A stretch of 64,000 nucleotides of DNA from Streptomyces hundungensis (lineage in GTDB: Bacteria; Actinomycetota; Actinomycetes; Streptomycetales; Streptomycetaceae). A model generated the notes under the pieces. The model saw only the letters and a list, made by a program, of their open reading frames with translations, was not told the DNA's origin and did no database searches. Shown piece after piece: positions 3,927 to 17,358 of the stretch. A program made the position numbers and the translations under genes. The first letter of the stretch is position 1; every line of letters begins with the position of its first letter. The stretch lies in assembly GCF_003627815.1 (NCBI RefSeq), contig NZ_CP032698.1, positions 2,976,001 to 3,040,000 of the forward strand. Reading direction: 5' to 3'.

Positions 3927-4112
3927 ATGCGTTCCAGATTCCGTCCGATCGCGGTTCTTCTCCTTCCGGCCGCCGCCTTGTTCGCCTGCGTACTGACCAC
4001 CACGGGAAACACCGGCGCGCCGGCCCGTCCCGTCGCCGGTGTCGCCGACTCCGCCACCGTCGTCGTCCCCGTCCCGTCCCCGAACCCCGGCGACGGATTC
4101 TCCTGGGGCTGA
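3927..4112 (+). CDS. Small exported protein (61 residues)
   Basis: Unrecognised. The ATG at 3927 follows a good AAAAGGTGG ribosome-binding sequence. The product begins MRSRFRPIAVLLLPAAALFAC, a typical signal peptide, with Cys in an LFAC context that could be a weak lipobox. The mature part would be only about 40 residues, rich in Ala, Thr, Val and Pro, and ends PNPGDGFSWG. It stands just ahead of the accessory glycan/lipid block and may belong to it or simply be a species-specific secreted peptide. Confidence 0.55.
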   Translation: MRSRFRPIAVLLLPAAALFACVLTTTGNTGAPARPVAGVADSATVVVPVPSPNPGDGFSWG

Positions 4113-4136: not shown

Positions 4137-4397
4137 ATGACCGCCTCGGACGGGGACCGTGCCGAACCCCCGACGAAGACGCAGGTGATCGAAACGCTCC
4201 GGCGCATCGACGCGCACTGCGGCCATGAGGAGCCGGCCCGTGCGCTGGTCCTCGGCCAGTCGATCCGGCTGGCCCTCTACCTCCGGAGTCCGGACGAGAC
4301 CGAGGCCGTCGCACGCGCCCTGGACATCTGCGGACGGCTGCTGGCCGCGTCGCCGGAGTTCGCCCGCTTCCACATCACGGACTTCCAACTCCTGTGA
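4137..4397 (+). CDS. Hypothetical 86-residue protein
   Basis: Unrecognised soluble protein with predicted helices (TQVIETLRRIDAHCG, ARALVLGQSIRLALYLRS, TEAVARALDICGRLLAA) and no membrane segment. Codon use looks like its neighbours. It sits 40 bases before the first glycosyltransferase of the block on the same strand. The ATG at 4137 has only a weak ribosome-binding sequence, so the start is not secure. Confidence 0.5.
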   Translation: MTASDGDRAEPPTKTQVIETLRRIDAHCGHEEPARALVLGQSIRLALYLRSPDETEAVARALDICGRLLAASPEFARFHITDFQLL

Positions 4398-4437: not shown

Positions 4438-5457
4438 ATGCCCAGGGCCCGCCCGAGCGTGTCCGTCATCATCCCCAATTTCAATTACGAGAAGACCCTG
4501 CGGGCCTGTCTGGAATCGGTGTTCGCGCAGACCCACGCTCCCCTCGACGTCATCGTCGTCGACGACGCGAGCACCGACCGTTCACGGGACATCGCCCGGG
4601 AATTCCCCTGCGTCCTCATCGCGAGTCCGCGCAACAGGGGGGTGTCCGCGGCCCGCAACCTCGGCGCCGCCGCGGCCCGGGGCGAGATCCTCTTCTTCCT
4701 CGACTCGGACACCGCGCTCTCCCCGGACGCCCTGGCCAACGCCGTCGACCAGCTCCTGGACGACCCGGGCCTCGGCTGTGTGCACGGGGTGCTCGACCCC
4801 GAGCCGCTCTATGACGACGGGCCCGTCGAGCGCTATCACGCGCTGCACGCGCACTTCTGGCGGCGGCGCGGCGCCGGAGAGGTGCGGACCGCGTTCTTCG
4901 CGCTCGGCGCCATCTGGAAGCACGTCTTCGAGGAGATCGGCCCCTTCGACGAGAACCTGCGGGATTCCGAGGACGTCGAGTACAGCGGGCGGCTCGTCGA
5001 GAAGTACCGCATCCGCATGTCCGAGACGGTCACCGGACGCCACGACGACGTGGACCGGCTGCTGCCGATGCTGCGCGAGCAGTACCGGCGCTCCCAGCTC
5101 CTGATCGCGGCGGTGGGCCAGATGCGGGCGGGCGGACTCAGCGCCAACCGGCCGCTCGGCGTGCTCGCCGCGGCGCTCGCCCCGCCCGCGCTGCTCCTCG
5201 GCCCCCTGTCGCCGTGGCTGCTGCTCGTGCCCGCCCTGTGCGTCCTGGTCTTCGCCTGCGCCGACCCGGGGCTCAGCTCCTTCGTCCTGCGCGCCAAGGG
5301 GCCCGGCTTCCTGCTGTGGTTCACCTGCGTCCACTTCGTGCTGCACCTGGCGCTGGTGCTCGGCGCGGCGCGCGGGGTCGTGCGCTGGCTCACCGAGCCG
5401 GAGTTCGGGCCCACCGTCCGCCGCCGCACGCCGGTGCCCGCCGCCGGCCGGCGGTGA
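4438..5457 (+). CDS. Family 2 glycosyltransferase A
   Basis: A 339-residue GT-A fold transferase. The N-terminal VSVIIPNFNYEKTL, VVDDASTDRS and the nucleotide-sugar/metal motif LDSDTAL (DxD-type) define GT2; EDVEYSGR fits the ED motif of the acceptor side. Two or three hydrophobic C-terminal segments (about 240-320) anchor it in the membrane, so it probably adds a sugar to a lipid-linked acceptor on the cytoplasmic face. The ATG at 4438 is chosen because the GT fold begins within ten residues; the frame is open further upstream but that part reads as the neighbour's shadow. It is paralogous to the enzyme at 9963. Confidence 0.8.
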   Translation: MPRARPSVSVIIPNFNYEKTLRACLESVFAQTHAPLDVIVVDDASTDRSRDIAREFPCVLIASPRNRGVSAARNLGAAAARGEILFFLDSDTALSPDALANAVDQLLDDPGLGCVHGVLDPEPLYDDGPVERYHALHAHFWRRRGAGEVRTAFFALGAIWKHVFEEIGPFDENLRDSEDVEYSGRLVEKYRIRMSETVTGRHDDVDRLLPMLREQYRRSQLLIAAVGQMRAGGLSANRPLGVLAAALAPPALLLGPLSPWLLLVPALCVLVFACADPGLSSFVLRAKGPGFLLWFTCVHFVLHLALVLGAARGVVRWLTEPEFGPTVRRRTPVPAAGRR

Positions 5458-5534
5458 CCCCCGGCCCCACCCGCCACGCTCGCCTCCCCGCCCGGTGTTC
5501 CCCGCCACCGCCCGTCAGCAACTGGAGCCTGTCC

Positions 5535-6494
5535 ATGGCCACTTACGGCCCCACGCTCGCCCAGCAGCCGGCCCGCACCCAGCAGGCCCGGCCCCCCAGC
5601 CTCCTTCGCGACCTCACCTCCCTCGTCCGGCCCGGCCAGTGGTCCAAGAACCTGGTCGTGGTGCCGCTCGGGCTGCTCGGCGCCGAACGCCCGGCGGGCC
5701 GGCTGCTCGGCGGCGCGGTCGCCGCCGTCATCGCCTTCACCCTGGCCTCCGCGCTGGTCTACCTCGTCAACGACATCAGCGACCGTGACCGGGACCGCAG
5801 CCACCCGCAGAAACGCAACCGTCCCATCGCCGCCGGCCGGGTCAAGGTGGCCGCCGCCGTGGCGTTCGCCGCGGTGCTCGTCGTGCTCCTCGCGGCGGCC
5901 GTCACCGGGTGCGCGCTGCTCGGCGTCGCCCCGGCCGGCGCCTGGTGGCCGGTCCTCGCCTACCTCGCCCTCAACGTGGCGTACAGCAGAGGCCTCAAGC
6001 ACGTACCGCTGCTCGACGTCTTCATCGTCGCCCTCGGCTTCGTCCTCAGACTCGTGCAGGGCGCGCTCGCCGCGTCCTCGCCCGTACCCGACTGGCTGGC
6101 GCTCTGCGTGTTTTCGCTGTGCCTGATGCTGATCCTCGGCAAGCGGCGCCACGAGATGAGCGTGGGCGGTGTGCTGCACCGGCCCGCCCTGCGCGGCTAC
6201 ACCGTCGCCTTCCTCGACCAACTCCTGGTGTTCGCGGCGGTGTTGACCGCGATCGCCTACGTACTCCAGGTGCAGAACAGTGCCGTGTTCGGCGCCCACG
6301 GCACGGCGGTCGCGATGCTCACCGCGCCGTTCGCGCTCTTCGGCCTGGCCCGCTACCTCCAGCTGCTCGTGGTCGACTCCGGTGGCGGCAACCCGTCGCG
6401 CGCCCTGTTCAAGGACCGCGTGACCGTCTCCAACGCGCTGGTGTGGTCCTGCCTGGTCGGCGGCTCCGCGCTCTTCGTCCACGCCGCGTCATGA
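5535..6494 (+). CDS. UbiA-family prenyltransferase, DPPR synthase-like
   Basis: A 319-residue integral membrane enzyme with about eight or nine hydrophobic helices. The two Asp-rich signatures of UbiA enzymes are visible: NDISDRDRDRSHPQKRNRPIAAG (written here only to mark NDxxD and KRxRPIAAG, about residues 78-100) and a second loop near LDVFIVALGFVLR (about 160-172). KRNRPIAAG is typical of decaprenyl-phosphate 5-phosphoribosyltransferases, which move phosphoribose from PRPP onto polyprenyl phosphate, rather than quinone or haem enzymes. Its stop overlaps the next start by four bases (ATGA). Substrate is inferred. Confidence 0.78.
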   Translation: MATYGPTLAQQPARTQQARPPSLLRDLTSLVRPGQWSKNLVVVPLGLLGAERPAGRLLGGAVAAVIAFTLASALVYLVNDISDRDRDRSHPQKRNRPIAAGRVKVAAAVAFAAVLVVLLAAAVTGCALLGVAPAGAWWPVLAYLALNVAYSRGLKHVPLLDVFIVALGFVLRLVQGALAASSPVPDWLALCVFSLCLMLILGKRRHEMSVGGVLHRPALRGYTVAFLDQLLVFAAVLTAIAYVLQVQNSAVFGAHGTAVAMLTAPFALFGLARYLQLLVVDSGGGNPSRALFKDRVTVSNALVWSCLVGGSALFVHAAS

Positions 6495-7441
6495 CCGCCG
6501 CCGACCTCGCCCCCACCGCCCCGCGGGGCCTGGCCCGCCGGGCCGCGCCCGTCCTGTTCCCGCTCGCCGTCGCCACCGGCATCGGCTTCGCCCTGCACGA
6601 CCGGATCGGCGATCTGGCCGATCTGGTGGTGCGGCCCGGAGCCGTGCCCTATCTGCTCGGCGCGCTCGCCGCCAATGCGGGCGCCGTGCTCCTGTCCATG
6701 GTCACCTGGCGCACCCTGCTCGCCGATCTCGGCCCGAAGGTGCCCGGCGCCGCCGCCACCCGGATCTTCTTCACGTCGTTCCTCAGCAAATATCTGCCCG
6801 GCGCGGTGTGGGGGGTGCTCGCCCAGGTGAAGATGGGCCGCGCGGTGGGGGTGCCGGGGCCCGTGATGGTCGCCGTGTTCCTGCTCAATCTGATGGCGGC
6901 CGTCCTCACCGGCCTCACCATCGGCCCGATCGCGGCGCCCTGGACGCTGGGCGGCGACGCCTGGTGGCTGCTGCTCCCGGTCGCGGTCACGGTGGTCTGC
7001 GCCGCCCGCCCCGGGCTCATCAACTCCCTTGCCGCGCTGGGCGCCAGGCTCGCCCGCCGGCCCCCGCCCACCGCCACCGCCGGCGACACCGGGATGCGCC
7101 GGGCGATGGCCTCGGCCGCCGCGTCCTGGATGGTGTCCGGGCTCCATCTGTGGGCGCTGGCCGTGATGCTCGGCGCCCCGGCCCTCAAGGCGCTCCCCGT
7201 GTGTGTCGGCGGGTTCGCGCTCGCCACCGCCGCGGCGAGCCTGGTGGTCGTCCTGCCCGACGGGTGGGGCGCCCGCGAGGCGATCCTGATGCTCGCGCTG
7301 TCCGCGGTGCTGCCCTGGCAGGCCGCGGCGGCCGCCGCCGTCGCCAGCCGGGTCGTCTGCACCCTGAGCGAAGTCCTGGTGGGCGGGGCCGCGCTGCTCC
7401 TGACCCGCTCCTCCGGCAGGCCCACCGCCGCCACGTCCTGA
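6491..7441 (+). CDS. Flippase-like membrane protein (lysylphosphatidylglycerol synthase TM / UPF0104 type)
   Basis: A 316-residue polytopic membrane protein with about eight hydrophobic segments. Features such as SFLSKYLPGAVWGVLAQVKMGR (residues about 98-118) and PDGWGAREAILML near the C-terminus are those of the lysylphosphatidylglycerol synthetase transmembrane/AglD family, whose members flip or help transfer lipid-linked sugars. It lacks any soluble aminoacyl-transferase domain. Translation is coupled to the upstream UbiA gene, so a role in moving the lipid-linked product is plausible but inferred. Confidence 0.65.
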   Translation: MTAADLAPTAPRGLARRAAPVLFPLAVATGIGFALHDRIGDLADLVVRPGAVPYLLGALAANAGAVLLSMVTWRTLLADLGPKVPGAAATRIFFTSFLSKYLPGAVWGVLAQVKMGRAVGVPGPVMVAVFLLNLMAAVLTGLTIGPIAAPWTLGGDAWWLLLPVAVTVVCAARPGLINSLAALGARLARRPPPTATAGDTGMRRAMASAAASWMVSGLHLWALAVMLGAPALKALPVCVGGFALATAAASLVVVLPDGWGAREAILMLALSAVLPWQAAAAAAVASRVVCTLSEVLVGGAALLLTRSSGRPTAATS

Positions 7442-7470
7442 CCGTCCGCCCCCCCCCGAAGAGGGATCCC

Positions 7471-8901
7471 ATGCCACAGCTGTACTCCGTCGACGACTGC
7501 GAGTCGCTGACCACCAAGCAGGTCCACGGCCTCTACAAGGACCACGTCAACCGCAGCCAGGTCTCGCTCATGACCTCCTTCGGCTTCGGCCAGGAGCTCG
7601 TGGAGCGCGCCGAGGGCGCCTACATCCACCAGCGCGACGGCCGGCGCGTCCTGGACTTCACCGGCGGGGTCGGGGTCCTCAACCACGGCCACAACCACCC
7701 GCGCATCCTGGCCGCCCGCCGGCGCTTCCAGGAGGAGCGCCGCATGGAGGTCCACAAGACCTACTTCTCGCCCTACATCGCGGCCCTCGGCCACAACCTG
7801 GCCGAGCTGCTCCCCGGCGATCTGAACATGTCGTTCTTCCCCAACTCCGGTGCGGAGGCGGTCGAGGGCGCGGTGAAGCTGGCGTACAAGTACCACGGCG
7901 GGCGGCGCTCGAAGGTGCTGCGGGCCGACATCAGCTTCCACGGCAAGCTGCTCGGCTCGGGCAGCCTGACCGGGCAGAACCAGTCGACCTTCCAGTTCCC
8001 CGGCATCCCCGGTGTCGGCGTCTTCCCGTACGGGGACCTGGCGGCCGTCGAGCGCGAGGTCGCCAACTCCCGTACAGCGAAAGGCGATTCGGACGTCTAC
8101 TGCATTCTGATCGAACCGCTCAGCGCGTCCACGATGAACGTGTGCTCGGAGGAATTCCTGCGCGGCCTTCGGGAGCTCTGCACCCGCGAGGACATCGTGC
8201 TGCTCTTCGACGAGATCTACACCGGCTGGGGCAAGACCGGCAGCCTCTTCCACTTCATGCGGTACGAGGGTCTGGTCCCGGACATCCTCACCACCTCCAA
8301 GTCGTTCGGCGGCGGCAAGTCCTCCATCTCGGCGTTCATCGCCCGCGAGCCGGTCTTCCGCAAGGCGTACGACAACCTCACCGACGCGCTGCTCCAGTCG
8401 ACCAGCACCACCTACTACGGGTTCGGCGAGGAGGCGATCACCGCCATCGAGGCCGTCAACGTCGCGGTGGAGGACGACTACCCGGCCCGGGCCCGCGCCA
8501 TCGAGCGGATTCTGGGCCCCGGTCTCGAACGGATCGCCAAGGAACACCCGGACGTGGTGTCCGAGGTGCGGGGCGTGGGCGCGCTGCACGGGGTGTTCCT
8601 GCACAAGGGCCCCAAGCTCCTGGAGCTGGCGACCAAGCTGGTGCCGGGCGCGATGACCAAGGACCCGCGCTTTCGCACCAAGCTCATCACCTCCTCGGTG
8701 GTCAACGCCCTCTACCGGGACCACGGCGTCTACGCCTACTACACCCTCAACGGCGACAACCCGCTGATGGCCGCCCCCTCGCTGATCACCGAGGACCACG
8801 AGGTCGAGTACTTCCTGGACGCCCTCGACGCGACGCTCGCCCAGGGCCTGCCGCGTCTCCTCACCCGTTTCGTCAAGGAGAAGGTGTCGTCGCTGTGGTG
8901 A
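7471..8901 (+). CDS. Class III PLP aminotransferase
   Basis: A 476-residue fold-type I transaminase of the ornithine/4-aminobutyrate/diaminobutyrate type. Visible are the PLP-phosphate loop NSGAEAVEGAVKLA, the aspartate that pairs with the pyridine nitrogen (Asp247 in LLFDEIYTGWGKTG) and the Schiff-base lysine (Lys277 in TTSKSFGGG). The strong GAAGAGGGA site fixes the ATG at 7471. Its stop overlaps the next start by four bases. It may introduce an amino group into a sugar or an amino-acid-derived building block for the block's product; the amino acceptor cannot be told from sequence. Confidence 0.82.
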   Translation: MPQLYSVDDCESLTTKQVHGLYKDHVNRSQVSLMTSFGFGQELVERAEGAYIHQRDGRRVLDFTGGVGVLNHGHNHPRILAARRRFQEERRMEVHKTYFSPYIAALGHNLAELLPGDLNMSFFPNSGAEAVEGAVKLAYKYHGGRRSKVLRADISFHGKLLGSGSLTGQNQSTFQFPGIPGVGVFPYGDLAAVEREVANSRTAKGDSDVYCILIEPLSASTMNVCSEEFLRGLRELCTREDIVLLFDEIYTGWGKTGSLFHFMRYEGLVPDILTTSKSFGGGKSSISAFIAREPVFRKAYDNLTDALLQSTSTTYYGFGEEAITAIEAVNVAVEDDYPARARAIERILGPGLERIAKEHPDVVSEVRGVGALHGVFLHKGPKLLELATKLVPGAMTKDPRFRTKLITSSVVNALYRDHGVYAYYTLNGDNPLMAAPSLITEDHEVEYFLDALDATLAQGLPRLLTRFVKEKVSSLW

Positions 8902-9941
8902 CCAGGACAGTCGTGACCGGCGGTGCCGGGATGCTCGGTTCGACCCTCGTGGAGCGGCTGCTCGCCGACGGCCACGACGTGCACTGCGTGGATCTGCGGG
9001 CGCCGCGCACCACGCACGAACGCCTCACCCACACCGTCTCGGACGTCCGGGACGCCGTCACCATGAAGCGGGCCACCGCCGACGCGGACGTGGTGGTGCA
9101 CTGTGCGGCGGCGCTGCCCAGCTATCCGGCCGACCAGATCCGCTCGGTGATCGTCGGCGGTACGGAGGCGGTGCTCGGCGCGGCCGAGGCCAACGGCGTG
9201 CCGCGCTTCGTGCACATATCGTCGACCGCCGTGTACGGGCTGCCCAAGGTGGTACCGACCCCCGAGGAGTATCCGCGCGAGCCGGTCGACACCTACAGCG
9301 CCGCCAAGGCGGAGGCGGAGGTGGTGGCCGAGCGGTTCCGGGGCAGGGAGATGTGTCTGCCGATCCTGCGGCCCAAGACGTTTCTGGGCCCGGGCCGCAT
9401 GGGCCTGTTCGCGATGCTCTTCGAATGGGCCGAGGAGGGCCGGCACTTCCCGGTCCTCGGCAAGGGTGACGTCCGCATCCAGATGTTCGACGTGGACGAT
9501 CTGGTGGACGCGGTCGTCACCGCGATGCAGGCCCCGGCCGAGCGCGCGGACGGCACGTTCAATCTCGGGGCCACCGCGTTCGGCACCCTGCGCGAGGACT
9601 TCCAGGCGGTCCTGGACGCGGCCGGGCACGGCAGGAGGGTGCGCTCGCTGCCCGCGAAGCCCGCGCTCGCCGCGCTCAGCGCCCTCCAGCGCACCGGCCT
9701 CTCGCCGGTCTACGGACGCCTGCTGCACAAGCTGCTCGACGACTCCTACGTCAGCACCGACCGGGCCCGCGAGCAGCTCGGCTTCAACCCGCGCCACTCC
9801 AACCAGGACGCGATCCTGCGCACCTACGCCTGGTGGCGCGAGCACCGGCGCACGCAGGCCGCCCCCGCCCGGGGGCAGGGCGTCACCAGTGTCGAGCCGT
9901 GGCGCCAGGGAGCCCTCTCCCTCGCCAAGGTGCTGTTCTAA
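8898..9941 (+). CDS. NAD-dependent epimerase/dehydratase (extended SDR)
   Basis: A 347-residue Rossmann enzyme. The nucleotide-binding TGGAGMLG is at the N-terminus, and the catalytic Ser-Tyr-Lys set is seen in HISSTAVYG and YSAAKAEAE (YxxxK). It resembles sugar-nucleotide epimerases and 3-beta-HSD-like reductases. The GTG at 8898 overlaps the aminotransferase stop (GTGA); the frame is open far upstream but that is the shadow of the aminotransferase. It may shape the sugar used by the neighbouring glycosyltransferases; the substrate is unknown. Confidence 0.75.
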   Translation: MTRTVVTGGAGMLGSTLVERLLADGHDVHCVDLRAPRTTHERLTHTVSDVRDAVTMKRATADADVVVHCAAALPSYPADQIRSVIVGGTEAVLGAAEANGVPRFVHISSTAVYGLPKVVPTPEEYPREPVDTYSAAKAEAEVVAERFRGREMCLPILRPKTFLGPGRMGLFAMLFEWAEEGRHFPVLGKGDVRIQMFDVDDLVDAVVTAMQAPAERADGTFNLGATAFGTLREDFQAVLDAAGHGRRVRSLPAKPALAALSALQRTGLSPVYGRLLHKLLDDSYVSTDRAREQLGFNPRHSNQDAILRTYAWWREHRRTQAAPARGQGVTSVEPWRQGALSLAKVLF

Positions 9942-9962
9942 GAGATCCGAGGAGTGAACACC

Positions 9963-11033
9963 GTGCCCAGCGACCAGCAGCCCTTGGTCTCCGTCATCAT
10001 CCCCAACTACAACTACGGCCGCTCGATCGGCCTGTGCGTGGAAGCCGCGCAGAACCAGACGTACCCCCACACCGAGATCATCGTCATCGACGACTGCTCC
10101 ACCGACGACTCCGCGGCGACCGCGGCGGCCCTCGGCGCCCGGGTGGTGAGCACCGGCACCAACAGCGGTGTCGCGGTGGCGCGCAACCTCGGGGCACAGC
10201 TCGCGCGCGGCGAGGTGCTCGTCTTCCTCGACTCCGACGTGGCGATGCACCCCGACGCCGTGGAGCGCTCGGTCGCGCTGCTCGCCGAGGGCGTCGACGG
10301 TGTCAAGTACGGGGCGGTGTGCGGCACTTACGAGCCGGAGCCGCTCATCCGGGACAGTCTGATCGAGGAGTACCGCTCGCTCCAGCAGTACTACCTGCTG
10401 CTGAGGTCCGAGGGGGTCATCGACACCGTGCACACCGCGATCCTGGCGATGCCCCGCACGGTCTTCGAGGAGGTCGGCCCGTTCAACCCGCTGCTTCGCC
10501 ACACCGAGGACCAGGACTACGGGCGGCGCATCTCGGAGCGGTACAAGGTGCTCAGCTCCCTGGAGGTGCGGGGCCGGCACGACCACGACGACACGGTACG
10601 GATCGTCCTGGACAAGGTGTTCAGCCGGGCCCGGCTCGCGGTGCCGCTGATCCTGAGCCGACGCGCACTCCAGGGCGGATTCGTGACCGGCCCCCGCGCG
10701 GGCGCCAGCCTCGCGGCCCCGCTCTCGGTGGCGGCCCTGGCCGCGCCGGCTCTCTGGGGCCCGGTGTGGTTCCTGCTCCCGGCCGTCCTGTTCGTCCTGT
10801 CCGTCCTCGGCGACCTCGACATGTACCGGGTGGTGCGGGGGCATCGGGGGCGCCTGTTCCTCGGATACTTCGTGGCCGTCAACTTCCTGGTGAATCTGAC
10901 GGTGTTCGCGGCCATCGGGGTGGCGGGCGTCCAGTGGCTGTTCTCCTCCCGCTTCCGCCGGCTCTACGATCCCCAGCCCCGTCCCTCGCAGAGCGCGGCG
11001 CTCGGCTCGGCGGTGGGTGCCCCCGGTGTCTGA
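9963..11033 (+). CDS. Family 2 glycosyltransferase B
   Basis: A 356-residue paralogue of the enzyme at 4438, with VSVIIPNYNYGRSI, VIDDCSTDDS, the LDSDVAM DxD-type motif and EDQDYGRR. Three hydrophobic segments close to the C-terminus (about 250-330) suggest membrane anchoring. The GTG at 9963 is preferred because GGAG (9951-9954) is eight bases away; the GTG at 9954 would overlap its own ribosome-binding sequence. The two glycosyltransferases bracket the prenyltransferase, flippase, aminotransferase and epimerase genes, which suggests two sequential sugar additions. Confidence 0.78.
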   Translation: MPSDQQPLVSVIIPNYNYGRSIGLCVEAAQNQTYPHTEIIVIDDCSTDDSAATAAALGARVVSTGTNSGVAVARNLGAQLARGEVLVFLDSDVAMHPDAVERSVALLAEGVDGVKYGAVCGTYEPEPLIRDSLIEEYRSLQQYYLLLRSEGVIDTVHTAILAMPRTVFEEVGPFNPLLRHTEDQDYGRRISERYKVLSSLEVRGRHDHDDTVRIVLDKVFSRARLAVPLILSRRALQGGFVTGPRAGASLAAPLSVAALAAPALWGPVWFLLPAVLFVLSVLGDLDMYRVVRGHRGRLFLGYFVAVNFLVNLTVFAAIGVAGVQWLFSSRFRRLYDPQPRPSQSAALGSAVGAPGV

Positions 11034-12186
11034 TCTGCTGCGGACCGCACCCGCCGAAGCCCCCGGGCCCCCGGCGCCGGACACCCCGCCGGTGCGGGGC
11101 GCCCGGCGCCGGGCGGGGCGCCTGGTGTGGTGGGCGGCGCTCGGCTGGCTGGTGTGCCTGGCCGTGGAGTGGGTGGTCGACGGCCGGTACTGGCCGGGTG
11201 AACTGGCCGGGGCCGTACCGCCGTTCGCCTACGTCGTCGTCCCGCTGGTGCTCGCGGCGCTGATCCCGCCGGCGACGGGCCGGGACCGGTGGCGCATCGG
11301 GGCCGCGGTGGCCGTGGCGCTCGCCCTGGGCGCGGGCCAGTCGGGGATCAACGTACGGGCGCTGTGGACGGCGGACCACCGACCGGGTCCCGACTCGGTC
11401 CGCGTCATCGCCTGGAACACCAACTCCTGGAACCAACTCCTGGGCACCCAGGACCACTTCTACGCGTTCCTGAAGTCCAAGAAGGCCGATGTGTATCTGC
11501 TGCACGAGTACCAGCACGTGACCCCGGACCGTAAGGGCCGGCTGCCGATCGACGATCTGGCACGGCTGCGCGCGGAGTTCCCCGGGTACGAGGTCACCGC
11601 CGACGGCGAGCTGGTCACCCTCTCCCGCTTCCCCGTCGTCGCCCGCCCTGCCGTCGGCCCGGCCCGCGCCCTCGCGCCGGACGCGGACTGGAACACGCGC
11701 TACCGGGAGGCCAAGTTGCTGCGCACCGACCTGTTGATCAAGGGGCGGACGGTGTCGTTCTACAACCTGCACATGCCGGTCTGGAACAGCATGACCGACG
11801 GTCCGCTCTCGGGCGCCTTCTACCGCCATGTGCGCGAGAGCTTCGGGCCACGCCAGGCCCAGTACGCGGGCCTCGAAAACGATGTGGCGCACAACCCCAA
11901 CCCCGTTGTCGTGGCGGGCGACTTCAACACCACGGCGGCCATGTCCGAACTCGACGGGATGCGCTCGCGGCTCGACGACGCGGTGCGCGCGAGCGACGAC
12001 CTGTATCCGACGAGCTGGGAGGAGGGCGGCTGGAAGCCGTTCTGGCGCACGGACTGGGCGTTCACCGGGCACGGGGTCACCGCCGACAAGTACCGCTTCG
12101 ACGCCCCGGAGAAGCTCTCCGACCACGCGGTGCAGGACCTCTGGGTGAGTGTGCCGGCCGCGTCCGAGCCCGCGAACGAAAGGTGA
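11026..12186 (+). CDS. Membrane-anchored EEP-family phosphatase A (VanJ-like layout)
   Basis: A 386-residue protein with about 40 cytoplasmic residues, three hydrophobic segments (about 40-105) and an endonuclease/exonuclease/phosphatase domain that would lie outside the cell. The metal and catalytic residues are all present: AWNTNSWN, LLHEYQ, YNLHMP, AGDFNTT and the final LSDH. The layout matches VanJ-type proteins, which dephosphorylate polyprenyl pyrophosphate. The GTG at 11026 overlaps the upstream stop; a GTG at 11017 is possible. It is followed at once by a paralogue. Confidence 0.72.
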   Translation: MSDLLRTAPAEAPGPPAPDTPPVRGARRRAGRLVWWAALGWLVCLAVEWVVDGRYWPGELAGAVPPFAYVVVPLVLAALIPPATGRDRWRIGAAVAVALALGAGQSGINVRALWTADHRPGPDSVRVIAWNTNSWNQLLGTQDHFYAFLKSKKADVYLLHEYQHVTPDRKGRLPIDDLARLRAEFPGYEVTADGELVTLSRFPVVARPAVGPARALAPDADWNTRYREAKLLRTDLLIKGRTVSFYNLHMPVWNSMTDGPLSGAFYRHVRESFGPRQAQYAGLENDVAHNPNPVVVAGDFNTTAAMSELDGMRSRLDDAVRASDDLYPTSWEEGGWKPFWRTDWAFTGHGVTADKYRFDAPEKLSDHAVQDLWVSVPAASEPANER

Positions 12187-12193
12187 GCCGTCC

Positions 12194-13219
12194 GTGTCCC
12201 CCGCTTCCGCCGTAGCCGTCTGCGCGCTCGTCTGGGCCGCCTTCCTCGGCGCGCACCTCGCCCTGAACGGCCGCTGGTGGCCCTGGCTCGCGGTGTCGCT
12301 GCTGCCGCCGCCGCTCTTCGCCGCCGTGCCGCTCGCACTGCTCGTGGCGTCGGCGGCCACGGGCAGCGCGCTCGGTGCGGCCCTCGCGGCCGGGTGCCTG
12401 ATCGCGGGCTGGACGCAGAACGGCCTCAACCACCGTGCGCTGAGCGGCAGTTCGGTCCGCGACGCCGAGGTCGAGGGCATCCGGGTGGTGTCGTGGAACA
12501 CCCAGCACTGGAACCAGGGCCGCGACCCCGATGACTTCTACGCCTTTCTGCACACCCTGCCCGCCGACATCTATCTGCTCCAGGAGTACCTCAACGGGTA
12601 CGAGGGCGGCGAGGTGTGGGACATCGACGACGAGGAGCGGCTACGGCGTGAGTTCCCCGGACACCGACTGGTGATCGACAACAACGCGGTGACCTTGTCC
12701 CGCTTCCCGCCGACCGGGCCCCCGGTGCCCGTCGGCGCCTGCTCGCTGCGGGTCGACGTGCGCACCCCGGCCGGCGTGCTGTCGACGTACAACGTGCACA
12801 TCCCGGTCCAGCTCACGGTGATGAACCCGCTGTGCCGGGCGTTCTTCCGGGACATGCGCCGCCGACACGAGGCGCGGCGCCGGGAGTACGACGCGCTCGT
12901 CGCCGATCTGCTCGCCAACCCCCATCCGTTCCTGGTCTCCGGGGACTTCAACACCAGCGCGGCCATCGGTGACATCCGCCGGATGCCGAGGTCAGCGCAC
13001 GACGCCATCGGCGCCAACCGTGCGTTGTTGCCGTCCAGTTGGAACGCCCGGTGGAAGCCGCGACTGTGGCGCATCGACTGGGTGTTCACCAGCGCCGGGC
13101 TCTGCGCGCGGAGTTACGCGTTCCGCGACCCGGGTGGTCTCTCCGACCACCTGGCGCAGGACGTCACGATCACCACCACCACCACTACCACCACCGATTC
13201 CGAGGAGATGAACCGTTGA
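12194..13219 (+). CDS. Membrane-anchored EEP-family phosphatase B (VanJ-like layout)
   Basis: A 341-residue paralogue of the preceding gene with three N-terminal hydrophobic segments (about 5-80) then the EEP domain: SWNTQHWN, LLQEYL, YNVHIP, SGDFNTS and LSDH are conserved. The GTG at 12194 is chosen for the GAAAGGTGA sequence nine bases ahead; the frame is open further upstream. An unusual run of eight threonines, from an (ACC)n tract at 13172-13195, precedes the C-terminus. It probably acts on a phosphorylated lipid carrier or lipid-linked intermediate outside the membrane; substrate unproven. Confidence 0.72.
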   Translation: MSPASAVAVCALVWAAFLGAHLALNGRWWPWLAVSLLPPPLFAAVPLALLVASAATGSALGAALAAGCLIAGWTQNGLNHRALSGSSVRDAEVEGIRVVSWNTQHWNQGRDPDDFYAFLHTLPADIYLLQEYLNGYEGGEVWDIDDEERLRREFPGHRLVIDNNAVTLSRFPPTGPPVPVGACSLRVDVRTPAGVLSTYNVHIPVQLTVMNPLCRAFFRDMRRRHEARRREYDALVADLLANPHPFLVSGDFNTSAAIGDIRRMPRSAHDAIGANRALLPSSWNARWKPRLWRIDWVFTSAGLCARSYAFRDPGGLSDHLAQDVTITTTTTTTTDSEEMNR

Positions 13220-14199
13220 TGCAGTACCGAGAGCTGGGCGGCAAGGACGGCCTGCGGGTGAGCACCCTGTGCCTGGGCACGCTCCCCTTCGGCACCCGGA
13301 TCGACGAGGCGACCGCCTTCGCCGTCCTGGACCGCTTCTACGAGGCGGGCGGCACGTTCCTGGACACGGCGAACACCTACGCCTTCTGGGAGCCGAACGC
13401 CACCGGCGCGGAGAGCGAGCTCGTCATCGGCAAGTGGCTGCGCAGCCGGGGCGTACGGGACGAGATGGTGCTCGCCACCAAGGTCGGGGCGCTGCCCGAG
13501 CCGCTGGACGCGCCGTGGCCGGAGGCCGCCGAGGGCCTGTCCGCGCCGGTGCTGCGCCGCCAGGTGGAGGCCAGTCTGCGCAACCTGGGCACGGACCGGA
13601 TCGACCTGTACTACGCGCACATCGACGACCGTGAGACGCCCGTCGAGGAGACGATGGGAGCGTTCGCCGAGCTCGCCGACGCCGGGAAGATCACGCTTTC
13701 CGGGTGCAGCAACTTCGCGGCCTGGCGCGTCGAGGAGTCGCGCGGCGCCGCCGAGCGCGCGGGCGGCCCGGCGTACGCGGCGGTGCAGCAGCGCTACACC
13801 TATCTCCAGCCGCGCCCGGGCGCGGACTTCGGGGTGAACCCGCACGCGAGCGAGGAGCTGCTCGACTATCTGCGCACCCACCCCGAACTGGCCTTCGTCG
13901 CCTACACCACCCAGCTCACCGGCGCCTACAACAACCCGGCCAAGGAGATCCCCGAGCAGTACCGGCACGCCGGCTCCACCCAGCGGCTCGCGGTGCTGGG
14001 GGAGGTCGCCAAGGAGCTCGGGGTCGCGCCCGGACAGGTCGTGCTCGCCTGGGCGCTGGGCGGCGAGCTGCCGATCCTGCCGGTGATCGGGGCGAGCTCG
14101 GTGGCCCAGCTCGACGAGTCGCTCGACGCGGTCGAGCTGGTCCTGGACGACGAGGTCAGGGCCCGGCTGGACGCGGCGGGCCTCGATGCGGAGAGCTGA
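13219..14199 (+). CDS. Aldo/keto reductase
   Basis: A 326-residue NADPH-dependent oxidoreductase of the AKR barrel. The catalytic tetrad is visible as Asp and Tyr in FLDTANTY, Lys in LATKVG and His in YYAHIDD; the cofactor phosphate region fits PVIGASSVAQLDESL near residue 295. Its ATG overlaps the previous stop (TGATG) behind a GAGGAG site. The context suggests reduction of a keto-sugar or aldehyde intermediate in the block's pathway, but many AKRs are generalists and the substrate is not known. Confidence 0.82.
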   Translation: MQYRELGGKDGLRVSTLCLGTLPFGTRIDEATAFAVLDRFYEAGGTFLDTANTYAFWEPNATGAESELVIGKWLRSRGVRDEMVLATKVGALPEPLDAPWPEAAEGLSAPVLRRQVEASLRNLGTDRIDLYYAHIDDRETPVEETMGAFAELADAGKITLSGCSNFAAWRVEESRGAAERAGGPAYAAVQQRYTYLQPRPGADFGVNPHASEELLDYLRTHPELAFVAYTTQLTGAYNNPAKEIPEQYRHAGSTQRLAVLGEVAKELGVAPGQVVLAWALGGELPILPVIGASSVAQLDESLDAVELVLDDEVRARLDAAGLDAES

Positions 14200-16348
14200 A
14201 CGGTACGCGACCGGGCTCGGCCGCCTGGCCGACGGTCACCGGGGGCTGGTGTGTCTGCTGTGGCTGGCGGTGCTGCTGGCGGGCGGGGTCGCGGCGGCCA
14301 CGCATCTGGGCCGCCTGGACCAGAGCTTCACCGCGTCCGGCCAGGACGGCGCCCGGGCCAACGCGGCGATCGCCGAGCGGTACGGGGCCGGCGCCGCTGT
14401 CGCCCCGCTGGTCGCCGTGGTCACCTGGCCGGACGGCACCGACGGGCACGCGCCCCGCGCGGCGGCCCGGCTGAGGTCCGGCCTCGCGGCCGCCACGGCG
14501 CCCGGCACCCGGGTCGTGTCGTACGCCGACACCGGCGACCCGGCGTTCCTGTCGCACGACGGCCGCACCACGTTCGCGCTGGTGTATCCGCTGGCCGGGA
14601 AGCCGGATCTGGCCGGCCTCACCGCCGTGCGGGACGCCACCGAACGGCTGCGGACCGGGCTGCGCGCGGCGCTGCCCGACGCCCGGGTGACGGTGACGGG
14701 TGTGCTGCCGCTCCAGCAGGACAGCGCCGCCGTCCGCCCGGGCGTGGGCCTCCAACTCCTCAAGAGCGCTTGCGCGTTGGGGGCGCTCGCGCTGCTCTGG
14801 CGGGCGTTCGGGCCACGGCGCCTGCTGCTGCCGCTCCTGCTCACGGCGGTGTCCTCGGTGGTGGCTCTCCTGGTGGTGCTCGCACTCGCGGGGGTCATGG
14901 AGATCAGCTTCGTCGTGGTGTATCTGATCCCGGTCGCGTCCCTGGCCCTCTCGATGCGGCGTTCGGCTCTTCTGGTGGACGCCTGGTGGGCGGAGCTGGC
15001 GCGCGGCACCGACCCCCGGCTCGCCCCGGGCCGGGCCGGGTGCGCCGTCGCGGGTCCGGCGACCGCGGGCGCCCTGGCTGGGACGGCGGCCTTCGCGGCG
15101 CTCGCCCTGTTCCCCGCGCCGTTCCTGCGGGCGATCGGCATCGCGGGGGCCGCGCTCTGTCTGGCCAGCACCCTGGCGGCCGTGACACTGGGCCCGGCAC
15201 TGCTGCCCCGGAGGGATCGACGACCACGGCCTCAACTCGCCTCGCCAGTAAGGACGTTGGCTCTTCACCGCACCCGGCCCGCTCATCGACTGCTCGCCAT
15301 CGGCGCCCTGGTGGCCCTCGGGGTGCTCATCGGCGCGAGCGGGCTGCTGACGGCCGGGAACCCCCGGGCCGAGGCCCTGGTGGACAGCGGTCCGGCCCGG
15401 GACGGACTCGATCAGCTGACGGCCGCCGGGATCGCGTCGGGCGTCCTCAACCCCCTTGAGGTGCTTGCCCCTTCGGGCATGGATGCCGAACGCGTGGCAG
15501 CGCGGGCCGCGAAGATCCCCGGCGTCCTGACGGCCGCCGCCCCGCGTGACGCCGCCTGGCGCCGCGACGGCTCCGCGCTGGCCGTCGTGATCCCGTCCGC
15601 CGAGCCGATGACCCCGTCCGGCCGCCGAGCCATGGCCGATGTGCGATCCGCGCTGGCCGGCACTGGGGTGCGGGTCGGCGGGTCGGGCGTGCCTGAACTC
15701 GACCTGGTGCGGGGCGCCTACCGGGCCCTTCCGGGGGCGCTCGCGGCCATGGCGCTGCTCGGCCTCCTCGCGCTCGTCCGGCCCCGAACCGCAGGGACAC
15801 TCGCCCCGGCCGGGCGGGCCGTGCTGTCCGCGCTGGTCGCGGCGATCGCGGTGACCGGGCTTCTGGTACTGGTCTGGCAGTACGGCTTCGGGTCCCGGCT
15901 ACTGGGCGGAGAGGGCGCGACGGGGGCGGTCACGGGCTGGGTGCCCCTGGTGGCGGGCGCCTTCGCGTTCCTGAACGCGCTCGACCACGCGGTGGCGTAC
16001 GACGCACTGAACGCCCTCGACCGCGCCGTGGCGTACGACGCGATGCCCCGTGCCCGGTACCGCGTCGGGCCCGTGGTCGCCCTGCCGCTTTTGGCCATCG
16101 GGCTCGGTCCCCAAGTGGAACTGGCCCTTCTGGTCACGGGAGTTGGCGGCGCGGCCCTGCTGGGGTCCGTGCTGCTCCGTGCGGTCGCGGTGCTGTCGGG
16201 GCCGTCTCGACGGGTCGTTCACGAAACGGCCACACAACCCCCCGCAAGCGCGCTTCCGGCCACACCACTGTCATCTTATTGGTCTAGACCTGGATTGCGT
16301 CTCGGCCATACGATCCCCCTGGTCGAACCACCGGACCACGCACAGTGA
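14186..16348 (+). CDS. MMPL/RND-family lipid transporter
   Basis: A 720-residue polytopic membrane protein in two halves, each with a membrane segment, an extracytoplasmic domain (about 45-180 and 390-510) and a cluster of hydrophobic helices. This is the layout of MMPL exporters, which move lipids and glycolipids across the membrane. The usual GxxxDY motif in the fourth helix is not recognisable: that region reads VVYLIPVASLALSMRRSALLV. It overlaps the aldo/keto reductase by 14 bases. A 12-codon tandem duplication lies in the second helix bundle, and the last codons contain a dre-like operator. It could export the block's lipid product. Confidence 0.7.
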   Translation: MRRAERYATGLGRLADGHRGLVCLLWLAVLLAGGVAAATHLGRLDQSFTASGQDGARANAAIAERYGAGAAVAPLVAVVTWPDGTDGHAPRAAARLRSGLAAATAPGTRVVSYADTGDPAFLSHDGRTTFALVYPLAGKPDLAGLTAVRDATERLRTGLRAALPDARVTVTGVLPLQQDSAAVRPGVGLQLLKSACALGALALLWRAFGPRRLLLPLLLTAVSSVVALLVVLALAGVMEISFVVVYLIPVASLALSMRRSALLVDAWWAELARGTDPRLAPGRAGCAVAGPATAGALAGTAAFAALALFPAPFLRAIGIAGAALCLASTLAAVTLGPALLPRRDRRPRPQLASPVRTLALHRTRPAHRLLAIGALVALGVLIGASGLLTAGNPRAEALVDSGPARDGLDQLTAAGIASGVLNPLEVLAPSGMDAERVAARAAKIPGVLTAAAPRDAAWRRDGSALAVVIPSAEPMTPSGRRAMADVRSALAGTGVRVGGSGVPELDLVRGAYRALPGALAAMALLGLLALVRPRTAGTLAPAGRAVLSALVAAIAVTGLLVLVWQYGFGSRLLGGEGATGAVTGWVPLVAGAFAFLNALDHAVAYDALNALDRAVAYDAMPRARYRVGPVVALPLLAIGLGPQVELALLVTGVGGAALLGSVLLRAVAVLSGPSRRVVHETATQPPASALPATPLSSYWSRPGLRLGHTIPLVEPPDHAQ
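15971..16042 (+). repeat. 36-bp tandem duplication inside the MMPL gene
   Basis: Two adjacent 36-base units (15971-16006 and 16007-16042) differ at four bases and encode LNALDHAVAYDA and LNALDRAVAYDA. The duplication keeps the frame and lies in the C-terminal helix bundle, where conserved helix-4-type residues would be expected. Confidence 0.9.
16278..16293. promoter_or_regulatory. dre-like DasR site ahead of the TrmB/LuxR regulator
   Basis: ATTGGTCTAGACCTGG contains the intact dre core TGGTCTAGACC. It lies within the last codons of the MMPL gene and about 95 bases before the ATG of the regulator at 16381, a suitable position for an operator of that gene. Confidence 0.65.
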
Positions 16349-16380
16349 CACCACGGCATTCGCGCACCTGGGGGAACCGC

Positions 16381-17358
16381 ATGCTCGAGGCACTCGGAAT
16401 CCAGCAGTCCACAGAGACCGTCTATCGACTCCTGCTGTCCCAACCCGATTACGGCGTAACCGAGTTGGCGGACCATCTGCACTGGACGGAGACCGAGGTA
16501 CGGGCGGCGCTCAGCCATCTCGCCGACCTCAAACTCGTGCTCATGGACGACGCCTCGGACGGCATCGCCCCGTTCAGCCCGGACGTCGGGTTCGCGTTCC
16601 TGCTCTCGCGGGCCGAGGCCGAACTGACCAAGCGCAGACGCCAGGTCGAGCGGGCCGAGCAGACGGTGGCGGCGATCCTGGCCAAGTTCAGCGAGGGCAC
16701 CACCTTCCGGCACGACGTGGTCGACCGCATCCACGGCGTGGACGCGGTACGCGAGCGCCTGGAGGACCTGGCCGCGAGCGCCCGCGCCGAGTGCCTCTCC
16801 CTGCTGCCCGGCGGCGCCCAGCTGCCCGACACCATGGACGCCAGCCAGCCCCTGGACGAGCTGGCCCTGGAGCGCGGCGTGAAGATCCGCAGCATCTATC
16901 AGGAGAGCTTCCGCAACGACGCCCCCACCCTCGAATACGTGCGCTGGTACTGCGACTTGGGCGGCGAGGCCCGCACCGTGCCGATCGTGCCCATGCTGAT
17001 GGTGATCGTCGACCGCAGCGCGGCGCTGGTCCCGGTGGACCCCGAGGACGCCCGGGCCGGCGCCCTTGAGGTGCGCAGCCGGGGACTCGTCAACGCGCTG
17101 GTGGTCCTCTTCGACCATCTGTGGGAGTCGGGCACCCCGTTCGGGGAGGCCCCGCGCCGCAACGAGCACGCCCTCTCGCCCCAGGAAAGGGAGTTGGTGC
17201 TGCTCCTCGGCATCGGCTGCACGGACGACATCGCCGCGCGAAGGCTGGGGGTGTCCCTGCGCACGGTGCGCCGGATGAGCTCGGAGCTCATGTCCCGCCT
17301 GGGGGCCCGCAGTCGGTTCGAGGCGGGCGTCCGCGCGGCCAAGGAGGGCTGGCTCTGA
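16381..17358 (+). CDS. TrmB-like/LuxR-type transcriptional regulator
   Basis: A 325-residue regulator with an N-terminal winged helix (about 1-60: GVTELADHLHWTETEVRAALSHL), a helical, possibly coiled segment rich in Glu, Arg and Lys (about 75-105), a central sensor-like domain and a C-terminal LuxR-type helix-turn-helix (about 265-320: LSPQERELVLLL, DDIAARRLGVSLRTVRRMSSELMSRLG). The ATG at 16381 follows GGGGGA; a GTG at 16345 overlapping the MMPL stop is possible. A dre-like site lies upstream, so DasR may control it. Effector unknown; targets may be the adjacent symporter genes or the upstream block. Confidence 0.8.
   Translation: MLEALGIQQSTETVYRLLLSQPDYGVTELADHLHWTETEVRAALSHLADLKLVLMDDASDGIAPFSPDVGFAFLLSRAEAELTKRRRQVERAEQTVAAILAKFSEGTTFRHDVVDRIHGVDAVRERLEDLAASARAECLSLLPGGAQLPDTMDASQPLDELALERGVKIRSIYQESFRNDAPTLEYVRWYCDLGGEARTVPIVPMLMVIVDRSAALVPVDPEDARAGALEVRSRGLVNALVVLFDHLWESGTPFGEAPRRNEHALSPQERELVLLLGIGCTDDIAARRLGVSLRTVRRMSSELMSRLGARSRFEAGVRAAKEGWL

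Follow-up and report, generated by a model that had tools for sequence, protein, structure and literature searches.

A conserved actinobacterial gene block that may encode a second lipid-linked pentose pathway in Streptomyces hundungensis

We analyzed a stretch of 64,000 nucleotides of the Streptomyces hundungensis genome (bases 2976001-3040000 of the 8.39-Mb contig NZ_CP032698.1; hereafter the window), which carries on its plus strand, at positions 4438-16348, a block of ten genes. These encode two membrane GT2 glycosyltransferases (GT2a and GT2b), a UbiA-family protein, a flippase-like LPG_synthase_TM protein (LPG), a class III pyridoxal-phosphate (PLP) aminotransferase, an extended short-chain dehydrogenase/reductase (SDR), two membrane-anchored proteins of the endonuclease/exonuclease/phosphatase fold (EEPa and EEPb), an aldo/keto reductase (AKR) and an MMPL-family protein. 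All ten, with the families that an initial annotation made from the letters alone had given them, were recovered from open reading frames (ORFs) and Pfam. The block is a true conserved unit widespread in actinobacteria and not a chance neighbourhood. We propose, as a reading whose chances we consider evenly balanced, that it encodes a second, non-DprE polyprenyl-phosphate-pentose pathway which would include amination, extension, flipping and dephosphorylation.

The unity of the block is apparent in a sample of 199 Streptomyces genomes searched for relatives of the UbiA (E ≤ 1e-15), SDR and aminotransferase (both E ≤ 1e-60) proteins; the best 11, 10 and 8 first-look candidates per genome, respectively, were scored, so that weak relatives may escape. 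UbiA was matched in 86 genomes, at 41% identity or more in 20 and by relatives of just 31-38% in the other 66. The SDR was matched in 20 genomes, and these are exactly the 20 with the closer UbiA. In 19 of them the two genes share a contig and are no more than about 5 kb apart; in the twentieth (G178) they occupy the ends of two separate contigs. The aminotransferase was matched in 27 genomes, at 71-100% identity in 18, all among the 20 UbiA/SDR genomes, and at 61-63% in nine. Twenty of these 27 loci were inspected: UbiA, SDR, LPG and EEP relatives were found nearby in 11/11 loci read from the closer group, in several gene orders, and no other window gene was matched (E ≤ 1e-8, 20 kb) in 9/9 loci of the 61-63% group.

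A wider actinobacterial sample was picked by the aminotransferase, 80 named loci being kept of 132 confirmed and making 81 with the window, from Streptomyces, Kitasatospora, Micromonospora, Salinispora, Herbidospora, Acrocarpospora, Nonomuraea, Actinoplanes, Amycolatopsis, Actinosynnema and others. Fourteen are short stretches and the remaining 67 span at least 20 kb (hereafter long loci). Named-protein searches scored 8000 candidates each and returned names, not functions, and the names given to recurrent families rest on one or two representatives of each. The SDR gene lies directly 3' of the aminotransferase gene in 81/81 loci. Among the 67 long loci, SDR and EEP proteins occur in all and GT2 proteins in 65, two GT2s being the commonest case (36/67). 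Gene calls gave UbiA in 65 and LPG, alone or fused to a GT2, in 64; re-checking at the DNA level raised these counts to 66 and 67, with UbiA in pieces in L075 and a partial LPG match at the stretch end in L094. Less regular companions are the AKR (44), a regulator (29), GT4 (16), MMPL (12), polysaccharide-deacetylase (9) and GT87 (7) families. With identical 20-genome UbiA/SDR sets and the core recurring through the 67 long loci, the genes are not scattered in related genomes, and the initial annotation's treatment of the block as one system stands. Its MMPL exporter does not: found in the 12 loci of one sub-type, it was ruled out as a core component. A sub-type with adjoining GT87, methyltransferase and polysaccharide-deacetylase families (Pfam evidence from L084), was seen in L084, L093, L110, L112, L113, L114 and L116.

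The enzyme predicted to open the pathway is well supported as a polyprenyl-phosphate phosphoribosyltransferase that would charge the carrier lipid with phosphoribose. The best NCBIfam models for UbiA are decaprenyl-phosphate phosphoribosyltransferases (DPPRS; 188.8, 163.1 and 128.4 bits), against 135.7 bits for the general UbiA model PRK08238, 38.4 for haem o synthase and 25.1 for 4-hydroxybenzoate octaprenyltransferase. Two PDB matches were obtained at E ≤ 0.001, both of them DPPRS entries (best E 5.8e-32). The Rv3806c structure (PMC10994848) supplied 13 residues contacting phosphoribosyl pyrophosphate (PRPP) or the lipid phosphate; ten are kept in the window UbiA, which is why we regard lipid-ribose charging as well supported, and wherever they align, all 79 family members share R22, K28, Y70, N73, D77, K87, R90, Y138, K143 and K191. 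Compared by BLAST with the UbiA proteins of its own genome, the window UbiA matched the DPPRS (37%, E 5e-25) and left both other full-length UbiA proteins unmatched at E ≤ 0.001. A small tree (FastTree, midpoint-rooted, no support values printed) was of little use: read unrooted, it puts the genome's DPPRS with the block UbiAs, apart from family F34 and the genome's other two full-length UbiAs; read with its midpoint root, the DPPRS adjoins the other UbiAs, and a short piece from L005 joins the block UbiAs by a very long branch. Clustering with haem or quinone enzymes, which the initial annotation had named as fatal to its reading, was not found; NCBIfam scores, PDB matches and contact residues rule out such an identity and leave the protein closest to phosphoribosyltransferases.

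The same genome encodes, 0.46 Mb away, a DPPRS proper (414.7 bits, cut-off 207) with an adjoining PAP2 protein. This second locus (L123, G000:C1:3429001-3449000, positions 9707-13629) comprises DPPRS, PAP2, DprE1 (675.8 bits, cut-off 500) and DprE2 (375.6 bits, cut-off 250), and had been overlooked by the initial annotation. Given that a separate DPPRS/PAP2/DprE1/DprE2 locus exists elsewhere, the block would constitute a second and different lipid-pentose pathway. The DprE1/DprE2 arabinose route itself was ruled out for the block, since DprE1, DprE2 and PAP2 are absent among its ten genes. The 31-38% UbiA relatives of other Streptomyces may mark the same DPPRS/DprE locus.

Modification of the charged sugar would fall to the aminotransferase and the SDR. 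The nearest solved structure to the aminotransferase is putrescine aminotransferase and its nearest NCBIfam model is PigE (232 bits, cut-off 850), both of which act on terminal amines or aldehydes. In the SDR, S108-S109-T110, Y133 and K137 are invariant in 18 aligned sequences, and PDB profile matches (E ≤ 1e-20) comprise epimerases, sugar dehydratases and other SDRs. A GalE-like SDR of Citrobacter youngae O2 with TGXXGXXG and YXXXK motifs converts undecaprenyl-phosphate-ribose to undecaprenyl-phosphate-xylose (PMC11127046). The 61-63% aminotransferases stand in a cluster of their own (L021-L029) with a GMC oxidoreductase (F25) in 9/9 loci, at times together with MFS and GH35 genes. Eight of these nine loci, L022 being the one that lacks them, also carry a GT2 of family F27 and an FAD oxidoreductase of family F28; the L021 representatives score 214 bits with PgfS and 130 bits with an ArnC-type model, both under cut-off, for F27, and exceed the PRK07233 cut-off for F28. 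We place amination on the lipid-linked sugar mainly because a lipid-phosphate-sugar synthase unlike that of the block also has a member of this aminotransferase family beside it; amination of the lipid-linked pentose is our best inference. The aminated carbon would be C2 or C3 should the 5-phosphate come off only outside the cell, or C5 should it come off first.

The same genes could instead form two supply lines, with UbiA providing polyprenyl-phosphate-ribose, the aminotransferase and SDR providing a nucleotide-linked amino sugar for the GT2s to add, and the pentose staying un-aminated. GT2s of this kind normally take nucleotide sugars, the SDR is GalE-like, and L122 keeps the UbiA core with no aminotransferase relative seen there. 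However, L122 also keeps the SDR, which fits a pentose epimerase; nucleotide-sugar aminotransferases are usually DegT and not class III enzymes; and no nucleotidyltransferase was recognised among the named recurrent families, whose representatives were searched. We regard two supply lines as unlikely and retain amination on the lipid as the preferred reading.

The membrane components appear to work together. Both GT2s have C-terminal hydrophobic segments, and in GT2a D93 and D95 of the DxD motif are invariant in 24 aligned sequences. Fusions of GT2 with LPG_synthase_TM form family F32 (six loci, by Pfam for L098) and GT2-EEP fusions occur in L101 and L103; such fusions tie the membrane parts to a single process. 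The GT2 fusion partner in L084 and L093 is a protein judged by eye to be acyltransferase-3-like. PDB profile searches returned no match for LPG and weak ones for the EEP proteins. EEPa has three N-terminal hydrophobic segments, and EEPa and EEPb are both membrane-anchored with intact EEP motifs; among 121 EEP proteins of the loci, a GDFN-like motif is present in 119, an SDH-like motif in 113 and three such segments in 90. With the N-terminus inside, three segments would place the catalytic domain outside the cell. The VanJ likeness proposed by the initial annotation agrees with a membrane-anchored EEP domain bearing intact catalytic motifs.

VanJ, an EEP-type protein, also lends some weight to the idea that the block makes an antibiotic-like glycophospholipid natural product, in which a polyprenyl-phosphate-pentose scaffold would be extended by the GT2s and exported while the EEP proteins protect the producer by recycling the carrier. 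According to the title of a paper cited in PMC5501778, VanJ confers teicoplanin resistance. The patchy distribution, several gene orders and different insertion sites point the same way, as do the pathway-type regulators of relatives (a BTAD-type family in 27/67 long loci, a response regulator in 15/67). Against this, MMPL occurs in so few of the long loci (12/67) and no other conserved exporter was recognised, and we consider such a product improbable. We judge equally improbable a donor system decorating a wall or exported polymer (teichoic acid, an exported protein or the GFSWG peptide described below) through a GT-C transferase encoded elsewhere, in the manner of three-component pentofuranose systems, for although GT87-family (7/67) and polysaccharide-deacetylase-family (9/67; Pfam for L084) genes accompany some loci, the window block has no GT-C, an LPG-type protein stands where a MATE or SMR flippase would be expected, and the two GT2s of the commonest case suggest an oligosaccharide and not a single pentose.

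Several observations weigh against a second lipid-pentose pathway with amination. The UbiA protein falls below all DPPRS cut-offs (188.8/234, 163.1/207 and 128.4/474 bits) and departs from the Rv3806c contacts at three positions: Q135, which contacts ribose O3, is replaced by N in 62 and S in 17 of 79 members, Y157 by F in 79/79, and K208 by P in the window protein, in an alignment judged by eye. Some mycobacteria have F at position 157 too (PMC10994848). As the 81 loci, and the 67 long ones among them, were picked by the aminotransferase, its presence there is by construction. One of them, L070, has aminotransferase and SDR but no UbiA match in its stretch. Conversely, two of the 20 Streptomyces genomes with UbiA and SDR do not show this aminotransferase. 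The locus of one (L122) keeps UbiA, SDR, GT2, EEP and LPG relatives, and nothing related to the block aminotransferase was seen in its 20 kb, other aminotransferase families not having been searched; in the other (L121) a class III enzyme resembling glutamate-semialdehyde aminomutase and a PhyH protein take its place. If the 5-phosphate is removed outside, a cytosolic SDR could not first oxidise C5. Finally, Pfam identified neither a GT-C transferase nor another user of a lipid-linked sugar among the ten block proteins.

On balance, we favour the following route. UbiA would transfer phosphoribose from PRPP to polyprenyl phosphate, a step well supported by homology. The SDR might then oxidise C2 or C3 of the pentose, or C5 once the phosphate is gone; amination of the carbonyl by the class III aminotransferase would give a lipid-linked amino-pentose, with the AKR possibly tuning the redox state in many lineages. 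The two membrane GT2s may lengthen the sugar, the LPG_synthase_TM protein may flip it, and the outward-facing EEP enzymes would remove phosphate, release or recycle the lipid, or both. We would expect the pathway to yield an amino-pentose glycan or glycolipid, either displayed on the cell surface or exported. The order of charging, modification, glycosylation, flipping and dephosphorylation suggested by the initial annotation fits the conserved core; of its overall pathway, the unity of the block and the class of the UbiA enzyme were borne out, the MMPL protein was not, and the aminotransferase is present in 18 and not 20 of the 20 genomes.

The arrangement of the genes is detailed in Table 1. 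Stop/start overlaps, which the initial annotation had ascribed to the block as a whole, are genuine at three junctions (UbiA/LPG, aminotransferase/SDR and EEPb/AKR) and depend on choosing the earlier start at two more (GT2b/EEPa and AKR/MMPL). The other four junctions have gaps: 77 bases between GT2a and UbiA, using the start that matches the 319-320 amino acids of the closest relatives, and 29, 12 and 7 bases elsewhere. Read from its first start, the regulator gene overlaps the stop codon of MMPL; otherwise it abuts it, so that the unit comprises at least eleven genes and not ten. The initial annotation had missed this gene as well as the peptide gene, one of two small ORFs upstream of GT2a, neither of which has a Pfam or NCBIfam match.

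Table 1. Features of the block and its borders in the window.
Feature	Position	Strand	Evidence or remark
61-amino-acid ORF, putative exported small peptide	3927..4112	+	hydrophobic N-terminus, C-terminus GFSWG
86-amino-acid ORF of family F18	4137..4397	+	family found in 12 loci
GT2a, GT2 glycosyltransferase with C-terminal membrane helices	4438..5457	+	PF00535 114.9 bits
UbiA-family polyprenyl-phosphate phosphoribosyltransferase homologue	5535..6494	+	NCBIfam PRK12324 188.8 bits (below cut-off 234)
LPG_synthase_TM flippase-like membrane protein	6491..7441	+	PF03706 52.4 bits
Class III PLP aminotransferase	7471..8901	+	PF00202 222.6 bits
NAD epimerase/GalE-like extended SDR	8898..9941	+	PF01370 128.5 bits
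GT2b, GT2 glycosyltransferase with C-terminal membrane helices	9954..11033	+	PF00535 106.8 bits
EEPa, membrane-anchored EEP-fold phosphatase-like protein	11026 (or 11092)..12186	+	PF03372 38 bits
EEPb, membrane-anchored EEP-fold phosphatase-like protein	12194..13219	+	PF03372 53.9 bits
Aldo/keto reductase (AKR)	13219..14199	+	PF00248 199.4 bits
MMPL-family membrane protein, sub-type specific	14186..16348	+	PF03176 55.1 bits
DasR-operator-like palindrome TGGTCTAGACCT before regulator gene	16280..16291	none	at most 2 mismatches to DasR operator core
TrmB-like/LuxR-C-terminal regulator, eleventh gene	16345..17358	+	GerE 22.9 bits (cut-off 23.5)

The gene upstream of the block is dasR-like, its GntR and UTRA domains bearing out the initial annotation, and at this site the block is an accessory insertion. 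A search of 101 genomes for dasR and the SSF symporter gene found both on one contig in 73 (one pair per genome, second-copy matches excluded). In the 64 of these without the block the two genes are 375-3518 bp apart in 62, which upholds the accessory status claimed by the initial annotation, and 8772 and 13407 bp apart in two. The block genomes comprise four with 14.0-17.9 kb between dasR and SSF and five with short gaps, which are short because the block is located elsewhere. Nine of the 64 non-block intervals were read; they hold a CstA-like gene in four cases, other inserts in three and a small gene alone in two, and none of the nine contains a match to a block protein, the regulator included, or a GFSWG ORF. 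A CstA-like (carbon starvation) gene was noted between dasR and SSF at sites without the block in L126-L129 and L134, by Pfam for L126 and by eye for the others. A dasR-like gene is present in 25 of the 81 loci, 23 of which show both flanks (dasR on one, SSF/RNR on the other), in three gene orders.

A short ORF ending in GFSWG, a signal-peptide-like precursor, was found in 23/81 loci, exactly those showing both flanks. Among the 199 Streptomyces genomes, a stop-anchored DNA pattern for GFSWG occurs in 11, once each and always about 5 kb or less from the block aminotransferase; the reversed pattern, used as a control, gave four matches in four other genomes. The pattern is absent from the other nine of the 20 block genomes, seven of which have a dasR match elsewhere; in G133 and G187 the 20 kb inspected around the block contained no dasR match. 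The peptide was ruled out as a universal block component, as it was not found in block loci without an adjoining dasR.

The regulator scores just below the GerE cut-off, and its TrmB-like matches are very weak. A DasR-operator-like palindrome, TGGTCTAGACCT, lies close to where the MMPL gene ends, some 65 bp ahead of the regulator's first possible start, and was detected with the core of the DasR operator. Of 31 regulator-bearing loci, 27 have a site with at most two mismatches to this core in the 300 bp preceding the regulator; L095, L104, L107 and L117 have none there. The whole window contains five such sites, three of them near dasR, versus 1.31 expected, a number matched by 1/100 shuffles. 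Eight further matches to the regulator exist in its own genome, and of the eight surrounding loci examined, two of which overlap, one has a clear small signal-peptide-like ORF. This ORF (L148 2589-2801, near G000:C1:4579854) carries three DVTWE repeats and lies near a regulator paralogue; small ORFs with DDxWD motifs were also noted in L095 (7927-8199) and L104 (8402-8593). Trp-containing exported peptides are possibly paired with such regulators. Judging from these sequence features, the dasR-site block is probably regulated via the TrmB/LuxR-like protein with its candidate DasR-type operator, and accompanied by a putative exported GFSWG peptide. A fuller combination, in which amination on the lipid would yield a new class of lipid-linked amino-pentose glycan, coupled through the dasR locus to chitin and N-acetylglucosamine sensing and accompanied by a short exported GFSWG signal, is possible but doubtful.

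No such block was described in the titles and abstract openings of the papers that the literature searches listed, one of them listing 20 of its 430 papers; GFSWG gave one unrelated listing, and nothing appeared on a regulator-peptide pair. Known polyprenyl-phosphate-pentose donors serve mycobacterial arabinan and Gram-negative O antigens. If our proposal is true, the block would add amino-pentoses to these and give Streptomyces, along with many rarer actinomycetes, a second lipid-pentose line, with the UbiA-SDR-aminotransferase-EEP-LPG set as a gene handle for finding the product. Antibiotics target the carrier lipids of the membrane, so that a new glycolipid metabolite or surface glycan would be useful. 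The pairing of a GFSWG peptide with a regulator of TrmB/LuxR type would allow the idea of peptide signalling in Streptomyces to be tested directly.

Among the nearest described relatives, the three-component pentofuranose systems of Citrobacter youngae O1/O2 (PMC11127046) share with the block a UbiA-type polyprenyl phosphoribose synthase, a GalE-like SDR (acting on the lipid-linked pentose in Citrobacter) and a flippase. The block differs from them in having an aminotransferase and two membrane GT2s, EEP proteins where those systems have a HAD phosphatase, and a PF03706 LPG-TM protein where they have a MATE flippase, that is, neither a MATE nor an SMR protein; it also lacks their GT136/GT-C transferase, GT87 being present in 7/67 relatives of the block. 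In the mycobacterial decaprenyl-phospho-arabinose pathway (Rv3806c/Rv3807c/DprE1/DprE2), the first enzyme is homologous to the block UbiA, which keeps ten of the 13 substrate contacts of the former. Unlike that pathway, the block is without a PAP2 phosphatase, DprE1 and DprE2. The Arn pathway makes undecaprenyl-phosphate-4-amino-arabinose; its entry is from UDP-glucuronate and its amination is by a DegT enzyme, whereas the block would be entered from PRPP via UbiA and has a class III aminotransferase (PF00202), with no ArnT or ArnE/F homologue among its ten genes. The likeness lies in the polysaccharide-deacetylase-family gene of 9/67 block relatives, a family to which ArnD belongs, and in the idea that the two pathways would share, that of a flipped lipid-phosphate-linked amino-pentose.

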